From Bermanella sp. (GTDB taxonomy: Bacteria > Pseudomonadota > Gammaproteobacteria > Pseudomonadales > Oceanobacteraceae), in assembly GCA_029938135.1 (NCBI GenBank), contig JAPYOO010000018.1, positions 1 through 37,493 on the forward strand: DNA of 37,493 nucleotides. Direction: 5' to 3'. How positions within the stretch are numbered: position 1 is the stretch's first letter; every line of letters starts with the position of its first letter. The translations under genes were made by a program, and so were the position numbers. Positions 25,040 through 31,703 of the stretch are shown piece by piece. Under the pieces are notes generated by a model, which worked only from the letters and a program-made list of their open reading frames with translations, was not told the DNA's origin and did not search any database.

Positions 25040-26209
25040 ATGAAAAGCATTTATAACGAATTTAATTTTGGTTTGGGCGAGACTATCAACATGTTGCGCG
25101 CGCAGGTAAACGAATTTGCCAGCCGTGAAATCGCCCCCTTAGCCAAACAAACCGATAATGATAATGCCTTTCCTAACGATCTGTGGAAAAAATTTGGCGA
25201 CATGGGTCTATTAGGGGTAACCGCAGAAGAAGAATTCGGCGGCATCAATATGGGATACCTGGCCCACGTAGTAGCCATGGAAGAAATTAGCCGAGCTTCT
25301 GCCTCTATCGGCTTAAGTTACGGTGCCTTTTCAAACCTGTGTGTAAACCAGCTAACCAAGAACGGCAGCAAAGAACAAAAAGCCAAGTACCTGCCAAAAC
25401 TGTTAACGGGTGAACACATTGGTGCCCTGGCCATGAGTGAACCTAATGCAGGCTCAGACGTAGTGAGCATGAAATTGCGCGCCGATAAAAAAGGCGACAA
25501 GTATGTATTAAATGGCGGCAAGATGTGGATCACCAACGGCCCAGACGCTGACGTATTTGTAATTTATGCTAAGACCGATTTTGAAAAAGGCGCCCATGGC
25601 ATCACGGCCTTTATTGTAGAGCGTGACTTCCCAGGCTTTAGCCGTGGAAAAAAACTGGATAAGTTAGGCATGCGCGGTTCCAACACCTGTGAATTAATTT
25701 TTGAAGACTGTGAAGTACCGGCAGAAAATATCATGGGTGGCCTAAACCAGGGCGTAAAAGTATTGATGAGCGGCCTGGATTATGAACGTGTGGTATTAAG
25801 TGGCGGCCCCACAGGCATCATGCAGGCGTGTATGGATTTAGTAATCCCTTACATTCACGACCGTAAGCAGTTTGGTAAAAGCATAGGTGAGTTTCAGTTA
25901 ATTCAAGGCAAGGTCGCCGACATGTACAGCACTATGAACGCCTGTAAGTCTTACCTGTATGCTGTGGCCGCGGCCTGTGATCGTGGTGAAACCACCCGTA
26001 AAGATTCCGCTGGGGTGATTCTTTACTGTGCCGAAAAAGCGACCCAGATGGCGCTGGATGCCATTCAAATTTTAGGCGGCAACGGTTACATCAACGACTT
26101 CGATTGTGGTCGATTGTTACGCGACGCCAAGCTGTATGAAATTGGTGCCGGCACCTCCGAAGTACGACGCATGTTAATTGGTCGTGAATTGTTTAACGAA
26201 AGTAAATAA
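25040..26209 (+). CDS. liuA: Isovaleryl-CoA dehydrogenase
   Basis: FAD-dependent acyl-CoA dehydrogenase of 389 residues that oxidises isovaleryl-CoA to 3-methylcrotonyl-CoA, passing electrons to [21 protein letters not shown] and [19 protein letters not shown] are the family signatures. Glu249 in [12 protein letters not shown] is at the position of the catalytic glutamate typical of isovaleryl-CoA dehydrogenases, different from medium- and short-chain enzymes. [15 protein letters not shown] and [18 protein letters not shown] complete the C-terminal domain. It lies 85 bases after liuR and is followed by a 90-base gap with a perfect 20-bp hairpin before liuB. Confidence 0.96.
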
Positions 26210-26221
26210 GACCGTCACCGC

Positions 26222-26270
26222 GGAATGAGGGAGTAGAGTTATTAAGTATTTAACTCTACTCCCTCATTCC
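26222..26270. repeat. Perfect 20-bp inverted repeat in the liuA-liuB gap
   Basis: Arms 26222-26241 and 26251-26270 are exact complements around a 9-base loop; the hairpin starts 12 bases after the liuA stop and ends 29 bases before the liuB start. On the + strand the sequence after the stem is CTTTACGC-like with a weak T-run, so it could be a partial terminator, an mRNA-stabilising structure, or a copy of an intergenic repeat. Confidence 0.9.
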
Positions 26271-26299
26271 TTTACGCATTCGTTTTAAAGGATTGGTTT

Positions 26300-27907
26300 A
26301 TGCCCGTCATTCATTCAAAAATAAATATTCACTCTCCTGAATTTAAAGACAACCAAGCCCACTTACAGGGCCAGGTTGATGATCTTGAAAGTTTGGTTGC
26401 CACCATCCGTTTAGGTGGTGGTGAAAAATCACAGGCTCGCCATAAAAGTCGTGGCAAACTATTGGTACGTGACCGCATCGCGCACTTGTTGGATGAAGGT
26501 TCGCCGTTTTTAGAGATAGGTCAACTGGCGGCTCATGAGGTTTACACCGATAACGTACCCTGTGCGGGCGTGGTGGCTGGCATAGGCAAGGTCAACGGCG
26601 TTGAATGCATGATTGTGGGTAACGATGCCACTGTAAAGGGCGGCTCTTATTACCCCATAAGCGTTAAAAAACATCTGCGCGCCCAGGAAATTGCCGAGAA
26701 AAATTATCTTCCGTGCATTTATTTGGTAGACAGCGGCGGCGCAAACCTACCACGCCAGGATGAAGTATTTCCAGACCGAGATCATTTTGGTCGCATCTTT
26801 TTTAACCAAGCCAACATGTCGGCCAAAGGCATTCCACAGATTGCCGTGGTCATGGGCAGCTGTACTGCCGGAGGCGCTTACGTGCCGGCCATGGCCGATG
26901 AATCTATTATCGTCAAAGAGCAGGGCACCATCTTTTTAGCCGGTCCGCCATTAGTGAAAATGGCCACGGGTGAAGAGGTGGACGCACAAACCCTGGGTGG
27001 TGGCGACATGCATACTAGCCAAAGTGGTGTGGTTGATCATTTGGCCGAGAACGATGAACACGCCTTGCAAATTGCTCGCAACATTGTTGATCGCCTTAAC
27101 TGGAAAAAACACACCGAGTTGGATGTACGTGACGTTATCGCCCCACTTCACGATGCTAAAGAGCTTTACGGCGTGGTTCCCAAAGACAGTAAAAAACCCA
27201 TGGACGTGCGCGAGATTATTACCCGCATGGTGGATGGCAGTGAGTTCGACGAATACAAGGCCAGATTCGGTACAACATTAGTATGTGGTTTTGCACGCAT
27301 CTGGGGTTATCCGGTGGGAATCGTGGCCAACAACGGCGTACTGTTTTCCGAGAGCGCGCAAAAAGGCGCTAACTTCATTGAACTGTGTTGTCAGCGCAAC
27401 ATCCCTTTAATCTTTTTGCAAAACATCACCGGCTTCATGGTGGGCAGCAAGTACGAACAGGAAGGCATCGCCAAGCACGGCGCCAAGATGGTAACCGCAG
27501 TGGCCTGTGCCAAGGTGCCCAAGTTCACTATGGTCATTGGTGGCAGTTTTGGTGCCGGCAACTATGGCATGTGTGGCCGAGCCTACGATCCCAACTTCAT
27601 GTGGATGTGGCCCAACGCGCGCATCTCGGTAATGGGTGGTGAGCAGGCAGCTGGTGTGATGGCATTAATTACTAAGGGCGCCAAGGAAAAACGCGGGGAA
27701 ACTTTTAGCGAAGAAGAAGAAGCTGAATTTAAAAAGCCTTTGTTAGAAAAATATGAAAAAGAAGGCCACCCGTATTATGCCTCGGCCCGCTTATGGGATG
27801 ACGGGGTTATAGATCCGGCTCAAAGTCGCGACATCTTAGGGCTGGCCATTAGTGCATCGTTAAATGCACCGGTTCAGGAAACAAAATTCGGCATCTTTAG
27901 AATGTAA
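26300..27907 (+). CDS. liuB: 3-Methylcrotonyl-CoA carboxylase, beta (carboxyltransferase) subunit
   Basis: A 535-residue carboxyltransferase subunit that moves the carboxyl group from biotin to 3-methylcrotonyl-CoA, forming 3-methylglutaconyl-CoA with LiuD. Crotonase-like N and C halves are visible: [22 protein letters not shown] at the start, [33 protein letters not shown] and, in the C half, [32 protein letters not shown] and [10 protein letters not shown]. The length is typical for MCC beta. AGGA precedes the ATG. Its last codons (GIFRM, stop) and the following bases are duplicated 67 bases downstream. Confidence 0.96.
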
Positions 27908-27977
27908 CGGGGTTGTTATGAAAAATAAAAACTCAGGAAACACACTTAATATTAACAGTATCTTTAGAATGTAACGG
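27893..27977 (+). repeat. Direct repeat duplicating the liuB 3' end
   Basis: An identical 18-base unit occurs at 27893-27910 (end of liuB, with its stop codon) and 27960-27977 (just before the liuC ribosome site), offset by 67 bases. The second copy keeps the same reading frame, so the short frame 27918-27974 ends in the same residues IFRM-stop as LiuB. Confidence 0.9.
27918..27974 (+). CDS. Possible 18-residue leader peptide between liuB and liuC
   Basis: A short frame, ATG at 27918 and TAA at 27972-27974, encodes MKNKNSGNTLNINSIFRM. It has GGGG 4-7 bases upstream, and its last four residues repeat the C-terminus of LiuB because of the duplicated 18-base unit. It may be a translated mini-gene that couples liuB and liuC, or simply scar sequence from the duplication event. 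No conservation can be judged from one genome. Confidence 0.3.
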   Translation: MKNKNSGNTLNINSIFRM

Positions 27978-27986
27978 AGGGGCATC

Positions 27987-28775
27987 ATGAGTCATTTATT
28001 ATTTACCATAGAGAACGGCATAGCTCGCCTTACTCTGAACAAACCAGAAATACACAACGCCTTCGACGACTTGTTAATCGCCGAAATTTTAGCAGCACTT
28101 AGTGAGATTGAAAAAAACGACCTTGTACGGGTAGTGGTACTGGGTTCCAACGGTAAACATTTTTCTGCCGGGGCTGATCTTGCCTGGATGAAACGTATGG
28201 CGCAATTGGATGAGCAGCAAAATCGTGATGATGCTCAGCACCTTGCGGAACTCATGCACAAGCTTAATGGTTTAAATAAACCCACCATCGCTTTAGTGGA
28301 TGGCGCAGCCTTTGGTGGCGCAGTAGGTTTAGTGGCGTGCTGCGACATGAGCGTCGCCACTACCCGCAGTCGCTTTTGTTTAAGTGAAGTGAAAATTGGT
28401 TTAAGCCCGGCAGTGATTAGTCCGTTTGTGGTGAGTGCCATTGGTGAGCGTGCCTCGCGCCGTTATTTTTTAACCGCCGAAGCTTTTGACGCACAAACCG
28501 CAAGCAACCTAGGATTAATACACGAGGTGGTCGCCGATAAAGAGGCGCTTGCTGAAAAAGGCCAACTATTAGTTGATGCGCTATTAAAAAATAGCCCGCA
28601 GGCCATAGACAAAACCAAACAGCTTATTCAAACCGTGAGTCGCGGCGACATTAATCAACAGATGCGCGATTACACAGTGAACCTCATTGCTGCTATTCGA
28701 GTAAGCACGGAGGGCCAAGAAGGTCTGTCATCATTTTTAGAAAAGCGTACTGCAAACTGGGTGAAGGAATCTTAA
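27987..28775 (+). CDS. liuC: Methylglutaconyl-CoA hydratase
   Basis: Crotonase-family enzyme of 262 residues expected to hydrate 3-methylglutaconyl-CoA to HMG-CoA. Motifs: LNKPEIHNAFDDLLIAEI, HFSAGADLAWMKRMAQ (oxyanion-hole region), VDGAAFGGAVGLVACCDMSVA and the FCLSEVKIGLSPAVISPFVVSAIGERASRRYFLTAE segment, which matches LiuC/AUH-type hydratases. GGAGG lies just before the ATG. The stop is followed one base later by the liuD ATG, so the genes are translationally coupled. Function is assigned from family plus operon position. Confidence 0.92.
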   Translation: MSHLLFTIENGIARLTLNKPEIHNAFDDLLIAEILAALSEIEKNDLVRVVVLGSNGKHFSAGADLAWMKRMAQLDEQQNRDDAQHLAELMHKLNGLNKPTIALVDGAAFGGAVGLVACCDMSVATTRSRFCLSEVKIGLSPAVISPFVVSAIGERASRRYFLTAEAFDAQTASNLGLIHEVVADKEALAEKGQLLVDALLKNSPQAIDKTKQLIQTVSRGDINQQMRDYTVNLIAAIRVSTEGQEGLSSFLEKRTANWVKES

Positions 28776-28776
28776 T

Positions 28777-30798
28777 ATGAGCACCTCTATTAATAGAAAA
28801 ACAATAACCCGCCTGCTGATTGCTAACCGTGGTGAAATTGCCATTCGCATCATGCAAAGTGCACAAAAACTCGGCATTCATTGCATCGCTCTTTATTCAG
28901 ATGCCGATCGTAACGCCCTACACGTAAAAAAGGCAGACGAAGCCTGGTTTATTGGCCCCTCCCCTGCTAAAGATAGTTACCTAGTAGTAGAAAAAATTCT
29001 TGAAGTAGCAAAAAAATCAAACGCCGATGCGGTTCACCCAGGTTACGGATTTTTATCTGAAAACGCCGAGTTTGCCCAGGCGATTATGGATGCTAGCATG
29101 GCATGGGTGGGTCCACCGGTGGCTGCCATACAAGCCATGGGTTCAAAAATTGAATCCAAAAAACTCATGGAAGCCGCCAACGTACCATTAGTGCCCGGCT
29201 ACCACGGCGACAACCAGGACGAAGCCTTTTTAAGTGAAGAGGTTCGGAAAATTGGCTTTCCGGTCTTGGTAAAAGCCAGCGCCGGTGGCGGTGGTAAAGG
29301 CATGCGCGTGATTGAGTCGGAAGATGAAATCGCTGCCGCCATTGCTGCTTCTAAACGGGAAGGTTTAAACAGTTTTGGTGATGACAAGTTACTGGTGGAA
29401 AAATACATCACTAGACCTCGCCACGTAGAAATTCAGGTATTCATGGATGAAATGGGCAACGGGGTTTATTTATTTGAACGTGATTGCTCTATCCAACGTC
29501 GCCATCAAAAAGTCATCGAAGAAGCCCCAGCGCCGCAGTTCAGCCAAAGTATGCGCGAGAAAATGGGCGAAGTGGCGTTGTTATCGGCTAAGGCCATTAA
29601 CTATGTGGGAGCCGGTACTGTAGAATTTCTGTATGCAAACGGCGAATTTTATTTCATGGAAATGAATACCCGTTTGCAGGTTGAACACCCGGTAACTGAA
29701 ATGATCACCGGTCAGGACTTAGTGGCCTGGCAGATTAAAGTGGCACAGGGTGAAAGCCTTCCGTTAACACAAGCTCAATTAAGTATTAACGGCCACAGCA
29801 TGGAAGTACGCATCTACGCTGAAGACCCGGACAATCAGTTTTTACCTACTACGGGTAGACTGGATTTTGTGCAACTGCCTGAGCTGATTGACGGCAAGGT
29901 TCGTCTGGATACCGGCGTAGTGCAAGGGGATGAGGTAAGCCCGTTTTACGACCCCATGATTGCCAAACTTATTGTGTGGGGTGAAGATCGCCGCCAATGT
30001 TTAAGCACCTTAAAAAATGCCCTGCAGCAATATCAAATTGCCGGTGTCACCACCAACCTGTCGTTTTTACGCCGCCTGGTGAATGTGGCCGCCTTTAAAG
30101 AAGGCACTGTAAGCACAGCCTTTATTGAAGAGTTTTCAAGCCAGCTCACCACCGACAATCAGGTTAAACAACATCACCTGATCGCGGCCGTTTGCCAGCA
30201 CATGTTAGTGCGAGTGAGCCCGGGCATTAATAGTAACGCCCAAGGGGATGCCAACAGCCCATGGCACAACATGAGTGCCCTTCGCCTCAACGCCCCTGCC
30301 CGTGAAACCTTGAGGTTGGCCTACAGCAATGGTGACGCCCTGGAAATTCAGGTGGACTCATTGGCAAGTAATGAATGGTGTCTACATCTGGAATCTGGCG
30401 CAATTAACGTTAAAGCCCGCTTAGAAGGCCAGCAATTGCAATATGAATTTAGTGGCCAGTGGCACAACGCTCGGGTGATCAATCACGATCAACGCATCTG
30501 GGTATATGACAGTCAGGGTGAAAGTGAAATTCATTATCAGCAAAATAACTTCAGCCAGGACGAAGAAATGGGTGGCAGCCTAAAAGCTCCCATGAACGGC
30601 ACTTTAATTCAGCTGGACGTAACCGTTGGCCAAAGTGTATCCACTGGCGATTCGCTAATGATTATGGAAGCCATGAAGATGGAGCACGCCATAAAAGCCC
30701 CACACGGAGGTGTAGTGAAATCCATTACATTCGCGGTGGGTGACTTGGTAGGCGGTGGTGACATCTTAATCGAACTGGAAGAGGTCGATGCATCATGA
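28777..30798 (+). CDS. liuD: 3-Methylcrotonyl-CoA carboxylase, alpha (biotin) subunit
   Basis: A 673-residue biotin carboxylase/biotin carrier fusion, partner of LiuB. Biotin carboxylase start [23 protein letters not shown]-grasp core with [47 protein letters not shown] and [14 protein letters not shown]; and a C-terminal biotinyl domain with [15 protein letters not shown], where Lys634 carries biotin. The middle part is the BT-type linker region of MCC alpha. It overlaps liuE by four bases (ATGA) and starts one base after liuC. Confidence 0.97.
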
Positions 30799-31703
30799 GC
30801 CTACCCAGTTCCGTTGAAATCATCGAAGTGGGTCCAAGAGACGGCCTGCAAAATGAGAAAAAAACTCTCAGTGTTGAGTTAAAAGTTGAGCTCATTGAAA
30901 GACTGGCCAAGGCCGGTCTTAAAAAAATTGAAGCCGGCAGTTTTGTGTCCCCTAAGTGGGTGCCGCAAATGGCGGGCACAGATTTGGTATTGGATAGGCT
31001 CAATAACAACAAGACATTAATAAAAGATACCGGAGTACGCTACGCTGCCCTTACCCCTAACTTAAAAGGGCTGGAAGGCGCCATTCAGCATAGCGCTGGT
31101 GAGATCGCTATTTTTAGCGCCGCATCCGAGTCATTCACGCAAAAGAATATCAACTGCTCCATCAAGGAAAGCCTGCAACGCTTTGATGCCATCATGGCTC
31201 AGGCTAAGCAAATTAACCTACCAGTACGCGGCTATGTATCCACAATAGTAGGATGCCCCTACGAGGGCGACATAGACCCGCTAAAGGTGGCCGAGGTAGC
31301 AAAGCACCTTTATCAGATGGGCTGCTACGAAGTATCCCTAGGGGACACCATAGGGGTGGGCACTCCGTTGATCTTTAAACGCATGCTGGAAGCGGTGATG
31401 AAAGAAGTGCCAGTAAACAAGTTGGCGGTGCATTGTCACAACACTTACGGTCAGGCTCTGTCCAACATTTACGCCAGTCTTGAATTGGGCATCTCAAAAA
31501 TTGATGCGTCGGTGGCCGGTTTAGGCGGCTGCCCTTATGCCAAGGGTGCCAGTGGCAACATTGCCACCGAAGATGTGCTGTTTATGCTCAACGGCATGAA
31601 TATCCAAACCGGGGTGAACCTGGATGAAGTGGTTGAGATTGGCCACTGGATTTGCAATGAGTTAGACAGAGAAAACCAAAGCAAGGTGGGTCTGGCTCGA
31701 TAA
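30795..31703 (+). CDS. liuE: Hydroxymethylglutaryl-CoA lyase
   Basis: TIM-barrel lyase of 302 residues that cleaves HMG-CoA to acetyl-CoA and acetoacetate, the last step of leucine catabolism. [14 protein letters not shown] at the N-terminus, [27 protein letters not shown], the metal-binding [12 protein letters not shown], and [14 protein letters not shown] with the catalytic cysteine are all present. The ATGA overlap with liuD implies coupled translation. No acetoacetyl-CoA synthetase or CoA-transferase gene follows in the window. Confidence 0.97.

Follow-up and report, generated by a model that had tools for sequence, protein, structure and literature searches.

Probable tandem-duplication remnant of the liuB 3' end in the liuB-liuC gap of a Bermanella genome

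When a tandem duplicate of part of a gene decays, a remnant of the gene's tail can be left in an intergenic gap, and regulatory leader peptides are the products of attenuation or stalling ORFs. The locus described here, the gap between liuB and liuC in a Bermanella sp. genome, resembles a decayed partial duplication in that pieces of the liuB 3' end are repeated directly downstream of the gene, in the same orientation, in shortened form, and are absent in sister species; it differs in that the remnant is very short (about 65 nt), reaches into the ribosome-binding site of the gene that follows, and gives rise to a small ORF. This mini-ORF shares with the ORFs of regulatory leader peptides that it is short and lies directly upstream of an operon gene. 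In contrast to them, its coding sequence for MKNKNSGNTLNINSIFRM contains no series of regulatory codons, leucine codons included, and the mini-ORF comes without RNA structure, Rfam match, or conservation in the genus.

Small ORFs between genes may also be considered in the light of termination-reinitiation. In the study by Huber and colleagues, coupling was almost abolished at a distance of about 20 nt, and distances from -8 to +10 nt were predictive of coupling, those from +11 to +20 nt being omitted as gene-specific (PMC10666635). By these figures, the 10 nt between the liuB stop and the mini-ORF start and the 12 nt between the mini-ORF stop and the liuC start would allow or border on coupling. 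There is, however, no sign of the mini-ORF being kept, and liuC is provided with its own, stronger site.

An 18-nt direct repeat at the end of liuB

The window, that is, the whole stretch of DNA analyzed (37,493 nt), belongs to a draft assembly of 687 contigs, 90.28% complete and with 3.64% contamination. According to its ORFs and their NCBIfam matches, it carries a leucine/isovalerate-type catabolic operon with the following genes.

25040-26209: acyl-CoA dehydrogenase gene, a member of the operon
26300-27907, plus strand: liuB, biotin-dependent carboxyltransferase subunit (methylcrotonyl-CoA carboxylase type), an ORF of 535 aa ending in IFRM-stop; carboxyltransferase family matches, all below curated cut-offs
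27987-28775, plus strand: liuC, enoyl-CoA hydratase family, 262 aa; best NCBIfam match gamma-carboxygeranoyl-CoA hydratase, below cut-off
28777-30798: liuD, the operon gene after liuC
30795-31703: liuE, with a hydroxymethylglutaryl-CoA lyase product

The NCBIfam matches support the enzyme classes, and among the matches shown the curated cut-off was passed by the liuE product only; the liu names are based on the order of the operon and on the label used in the earlier note, which had been made from the letters of this DNA. The gap between liuB and liuC measures 79 nt, and the junction is made up of the features below.

27893-27910, plus strand: first copy of the 18-mer ATCTTTAGAATGTAACGG, containing the liuB stop codon (27905-27907)
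27960-27977, plus strand: second, exact copy of ATCTTTAGAATGTAACGG, containing the stop codon of the mini-ORF
27908-27974, plus strand: 67-nt segment absent from the eight other genomes of the genus compared at the junction; its borders can slide within the repeat
27918-27974, plus strand: mini-ORF of 18 codons, product MKNKNSGNTLNINSIFRM-stop
27976-27982, plus strand: GGAGGGG, the liuC ribosome-binding site, duplex energy -10.0 kcal/mol

The two exact 18-mers are 67 nt apart. With up to three mismatches allowed, they were the sole sites of this sequence in the window, where 0.04 would be expected, and with up to two mismatches they were also the sole ones in the window's own genome. The second copy lies directly before liuC, and its end covers the first bases of the liuC ribosome-binding site. 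The mini-ORF starts 10 nt past the liuB stop codon, with CGGGG located 5 nt upstream of its ATG, and ends 12 nt before the liuC ATG. These positions agree with the earlier note, which had described an 18-base unit with the liuB stop codon recurring 67 bases further on and an inserted ATG with a G-rich site and an 18-codon frame. Its wording that the unit is repeated in frame applies to the mini-ORF and to liuC, which share one phase (both starts are divisible by 3) with the second copy, and does not apply to liuB, whose start at 26300 leaves a remainder of 2; as 67 cannot be divided by three, the second copy falls into a different phase from that of liuB.

Two other direct repeats were observed in the window, at 9565-9580/9615-9630 (16 nt, 94%) and at 4563-4597/4902-4936 (35 nt, 74%). 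Both are found within long ORFs and are probably internal protein repeats.

The junction in related genomes

LiuB was searched in 55 genomes, 41 of which had a match, and then in 293 genomes of the order, 275 of which had a match, and the junction was examined in the loci that were fetched, which cover a part of these 275. The junction set comprises 57 loci including the window's own: 29 of the 30 loci of the first search, 23 new loci of the order search, and 5 of the 47 stretches obtained by a 16-mer scan of genome contigs. Left out of the set were L001, L032-L041, and L089-L101, which repeat the same places, the other 42 stretches of the 16-mer scan, and L031, whose LiuB match was 45% identical.

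In the eight other genomes of the genus that were compared, LiuB is 83 to 97% identical to that of the window, and none of the eight (0/8) carries the 67-nt segment; one genome, that of the window, carries the insert. The nearest relative, G001, has a LiuB that is 97% identical, with 90.2% identity of the liuB DNA and 73.5% identity at third positions (26.5% differ); its liuB-liuC gap is 11 nt, and its first liuC codons are the same as those of the window. In G006, the gap is 23 nt by alignment or 14 nt when the earliest ATG is taken. Across the eight genomes, it ranges from 8 to 26 nt by alignment and from -1 to 14 nt by the earliest liuC start, the 79 nt of the window being the longest liuB-liuC gap in the genus. 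The comparison of this gap with related genomes, which the earlier note had named as one of its checks, thus found a segment unique to the window genome at the level of species, not of strain. Moreover, no other ATG ORF of at least 8 codons was listed in this gap at the eight other genus loci; a GTG-started ORF of 15 codons was found in the gap of L010.

Across the wider set, none of the 56 other liuB loci has an exact repeat of at least 12 tail bases within the next 200 nt, and the longest exact tail repeat among them is an 11-nt A/T run in L087; the scan covered exact repeats of at least 8 nt, such that decayed copies in other species could escape it. The 16-mer ends a liuB-like gene in 5 of the 47 scanned stretches (L048, L065, L066, L087, and L088), and none of these repeats 12 nt of the liuB-like tail.

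Sources of the inserted segment

The middle of the insert, between the two 18-mers, was compared with liuB, and the following blocks were distinguished.

27740-27759, plus strand: probable source block A in liuB, TTGTTAGAAAAATATGAAAA, from local alignment to the insert, part of a two-block chain
27913-27931, plus strand: putative copy of block A, TTGTTATGAAAAATAAAAA, aligning to 27740-27759 at the cost of one extra and two missing bases
27874-27888, plus strand: source block B in liuB, TCAGGAAACAAAATT, identical to 27933-27947 at 13/15 positions
27933-27947, plus strand: copy of block B, TCAGGAAACACACTT, identical to 27874-27888 at 13/15 positions
27948-27959, plus strand: 12-nt stretch, with 4 nt at the corresponding place of liuB and no convincing match by genome search or local alignment

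Blocks A and B keep the order that they have in liuB, and both stand before the 18-mer. Taken alone, block A was equaled by 25 of 1000 shuffles and the 10-nt core of block B by 22 of 1000. As a two-block chain, the 49-nt middle aligned to liuB with a score of 44, which was reached by 0/4000 dinucleotide shuffles when the last 300 nt before the 18-mer were used and by 8/4000 with the whole gene; in neither test did any of 2000 other segments, drawn with overlap from the window, attain it. Repeats of this two-block test, which was designed after both blocks had been noticed, gave 0/300, 0/300, 0/80, and later 0/3000. An earlier version of the chain with unlimited jumps was weak, being matched at 160, 200, and 300 nt by 4, 12, and 128 of 400 shuffles and by 9, 30, and 123 of 400 other window segments, respectively.

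The chain score depends on the liuB that is used as the source: it is 44 with that of the window's own genome, 42 each with those of G001 and G006, and 25 to 33 with those of the other six genus genomes. Both 18-mers of the window end in TAACGG, where G001 and G006 have TAAGGG, suggesting that the copying probably followed a lineage-specific change. By our count, which sets indels aside, 2 of the 51 bases in the aligned blocks differ, a figure to be read with the caution that these blocks were picked for likeness; together with the shared TAACGG, it makes the event look more recent than the divergence from G001.

Block A has a competing source. An old liuC start similar to that of G006 could explain it nearly as well as liuB, as judged from these alignments: TGTTATGAAAAATAA, within block A, agrees with the G006 liuC start, TGTTATGACAGATAA, at 13/15 positions (15/1000 shuffles were as good), and in the genus search the G006 match continues to window base 27928. 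A model of an old liuC start followed by the liuB tail scored 40 with the start of G006 (3/3000 shuffles), against 44 for the all-liuB model (0/3000), G006 being the best of several relatives tried. It fits G006 only, for the start of G001 gave 30 (315/3000) and that of the window's own liuC, rejected as a source, likewise 30 (342/3000). When liuC starts of 11 relatives were scored as single blocks, the shuffles as good numbered 4/500 for L004 (the G006 locus), 34 for L014, 56 for L005, 62 for L011, and 119 to 397 for the other seven. The liuB tail is tandem-copied in both models, and the difference is whether the unit reaches back to 27740, and so measures at least 171 nt, or runs from about 27874 into liuC. 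On the alignment scores, we prefer the unit reaching back to 27740, without certainty. The all-liuB model assigns no source to the 2 bases before block A, and neither model assigns one to 27948-27959.

Further candidate sources were tried and rejected. The window's own liuC as the source of the middle gave a whole-gene chain score of 29, reached by 3104/4000 shuffles and 1562/2000 other window segments; inverted copying by template switch from the local 3 kb gave a score of 17, with 387 of 500 shuffles as good; and for a transposed copy from elsewhere in the own genome, the next best match had E = 0.275. There was no plasmid match for 27780-28180, and one 20-mer of the insert had no exact match in viral contigs.

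In our reading, the liuB 3' end was duplicated in tandem within this lineage, and the insert is what deletions have left of the duplicate. We give a probability of about 0.8 to the insert being a remnant of a duplicated liuB tail, whatever the size of the unit; the claim on that size is weakened by the test with an old liuC start. In support, the repeat of the 18-mer is exact, has the same orientation as the adjoining liuB end, is beyond chance, and is absent in the close relatives. A tandem duplication including the liuB 3' end would have arisen in the lineage of the window genome, with a unit of at least 27874-27910, or of 27740-27910 (171 nt) if block A is liuB. The first copy would have remained the functional end of liuB, and the second, past the liuB stop codon, would have decayed and, for a unit of 171 nt, become shorter by about 106 nt overall, leaving the extra 67 nt in the gap. 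Its last 18 nt would so have come to stand directly before liuC, over the start of the ribosome-binding site. The mini-ORF would be a by-product, its mainly copied sequence being read in a frame other than that of liuB, from an ATG to the duplicated liuB stop codon. We infer that the decay was neutral and that the mini-ORF has no function; the insert is probably an ordinary tandem-duplication remnant. A single complex event, instead of a duplication followed by a deletion, would have the same appearance.

The earlier note had offered a duplication scar as one of two explanations, and this one gains from the absence of the insert in 8/8 other genus genomes and from the further likeness to the liuB tail beyond the 18-mer. 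Its copied unit of 18 bases is confirmed as an exact 18-mer, but the copied DNA appears to be longer, with a further liuB-tail block at 27933-27947 (13/15) and probably a second block. The locus would offer a small, clear case in which the tandem duplication of a gene end gives an operon gap a stop codon and a partial ribosome-binding site, and so an instant short ORF. It also calls for caution, as such ORFs should not be annotated as leader peptides from sequence alone.

The mini-ORF and other accounts of the insert

The other explanation of the earlier note, a selected leader peptide, was left without positive support, given a single genome, a chance ORF that is fairly common, no RNA structure, and a stronger site at liuC. 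In simulated fillers of the gap, an ORF that started with ATG and ended at the copied stop codon was present in 14% (shuffled) or 20% (window-drawn), and one of at least 15 codons in 3% or 7%, respectively; when GTG and TTG starts were allowed as well, 24% of the shuffled fillers had an ORF into the copied stop. The mini-ORF was found in none of the eight other genus genomes, which are of different species. The RNA fold at the junction was equaled or bettered by 191 of 200 shuffles (z = +1.52), and Rfam gave no match up to E = 1 in 26100-28800. The predicted pairing with the anti-Shine-Dalgarno sequence is -5.7 kcal/mol for the mini-ORF, the same as for liuD, compared with -10.0 kcal/mol for liuC and -8.3 kcal/mol for the liuC of G001.

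A different role is conceivable, in which ribosomes that terminate on liuB start again at the mini-ORF and then at liuC, so that coupling is retained despite the insertion and the ORF, born by duplication, is kept by selection. As coupling was almost abolished at about 20 nt in the study cited above (PMC10666635), a bare gap of 79 nt should uncouple liuB and liuC. A translated mini-ORF could in principle restore this link, by analogy with such coupling: the spacings of 10 nt (liuB stop to mini-ORF ATG) and 12 nt (mini-ORF stop to liuC ATG) would permit stepping, the mini-ORF has a weak G-rich site equal in energy to that of liuD, and an ORF of at least 15 codons is not the commonest chance outcome (3 to 7%). 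We nevertheless regard this role as unlikely, with a mini-ORF known in one genome only and an own site of liuC that is stronger than in G001. The second spacing, moreover, is near the ancestral liuB-liuC spacing (11 nt in G001) that would have been copied along. Gaps of more than 20 nt are found in 13/45 (earliest start) or 20/46 (alignment) of the other loci with liuC next, indicating that tight liuB-liuC coupling is not generally kept. The fuller proposal, that the duplication of a gene tail itself supplied the stop codon and the partial ribosome-binding site and thereby made a relay ORF kept for the passage of ribosomes from liuB to liuC across the insertion, appears even less likely. If true, operons could acquire new small ORFs in this way, and the present one would let the gain of a coupling role be traced.

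Loss in the relatives, instead of gain in the window genome, is very unlikely. The insert would then date from before the window genome and its nearest relatives diverged, and recombination between the direct repeats would have removed it from the relatives. Such a deletion leaves one clean copy, as is seen in the relatives, and a mini-ORF start resembling the G006 liuC start would fit an old arrangement. Nevertheless, the insert would have to have been lost from G001, from G006, and possibly from more distant genomes as well, as 0/8 other genomes have it, and the TAACGG common to both repeats is absent in G001 and G006. The 2/51 differences between the aligned blocks (indels aside) also contrast with the 26.5% of liuB third positions that differ from G001. 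Finally, a chimeric join or local misassembly, which the fragmented draft state of the genome described above would favor, is likewise very unlikely, given that liuB continues into liuC as in G001 and then into liuD and liuE, that the insert is altered and not an exact copy, and that usual assembly words are longer than an 18-nt repeat.

At other loci outside the genus, the liuB-liuC gap measures 92, 101, 124, 198, 347, and 617 nt by alignment, and gaps up to this size suggest that the site tolerates insertions. In another species of the order (L105, 944-1475), the gap contains six near-identical 89-nt tandem units (99% matches), and the same operon gap therefore took up a different repeat. 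The gaps in L012 (347 nt, counted from the liuB stop codon) and L020 (92 nt) contain G+C-rich stretches that look palindromic and, by eye, REP-like, again a sign of a gap that tolerates insertions. The liuB end itself also varies: in L008 (genome G007), the usual position of the stop codon is CAA, and the frame runs two codons longer to a TGA, so that the product ends in FRMQW.
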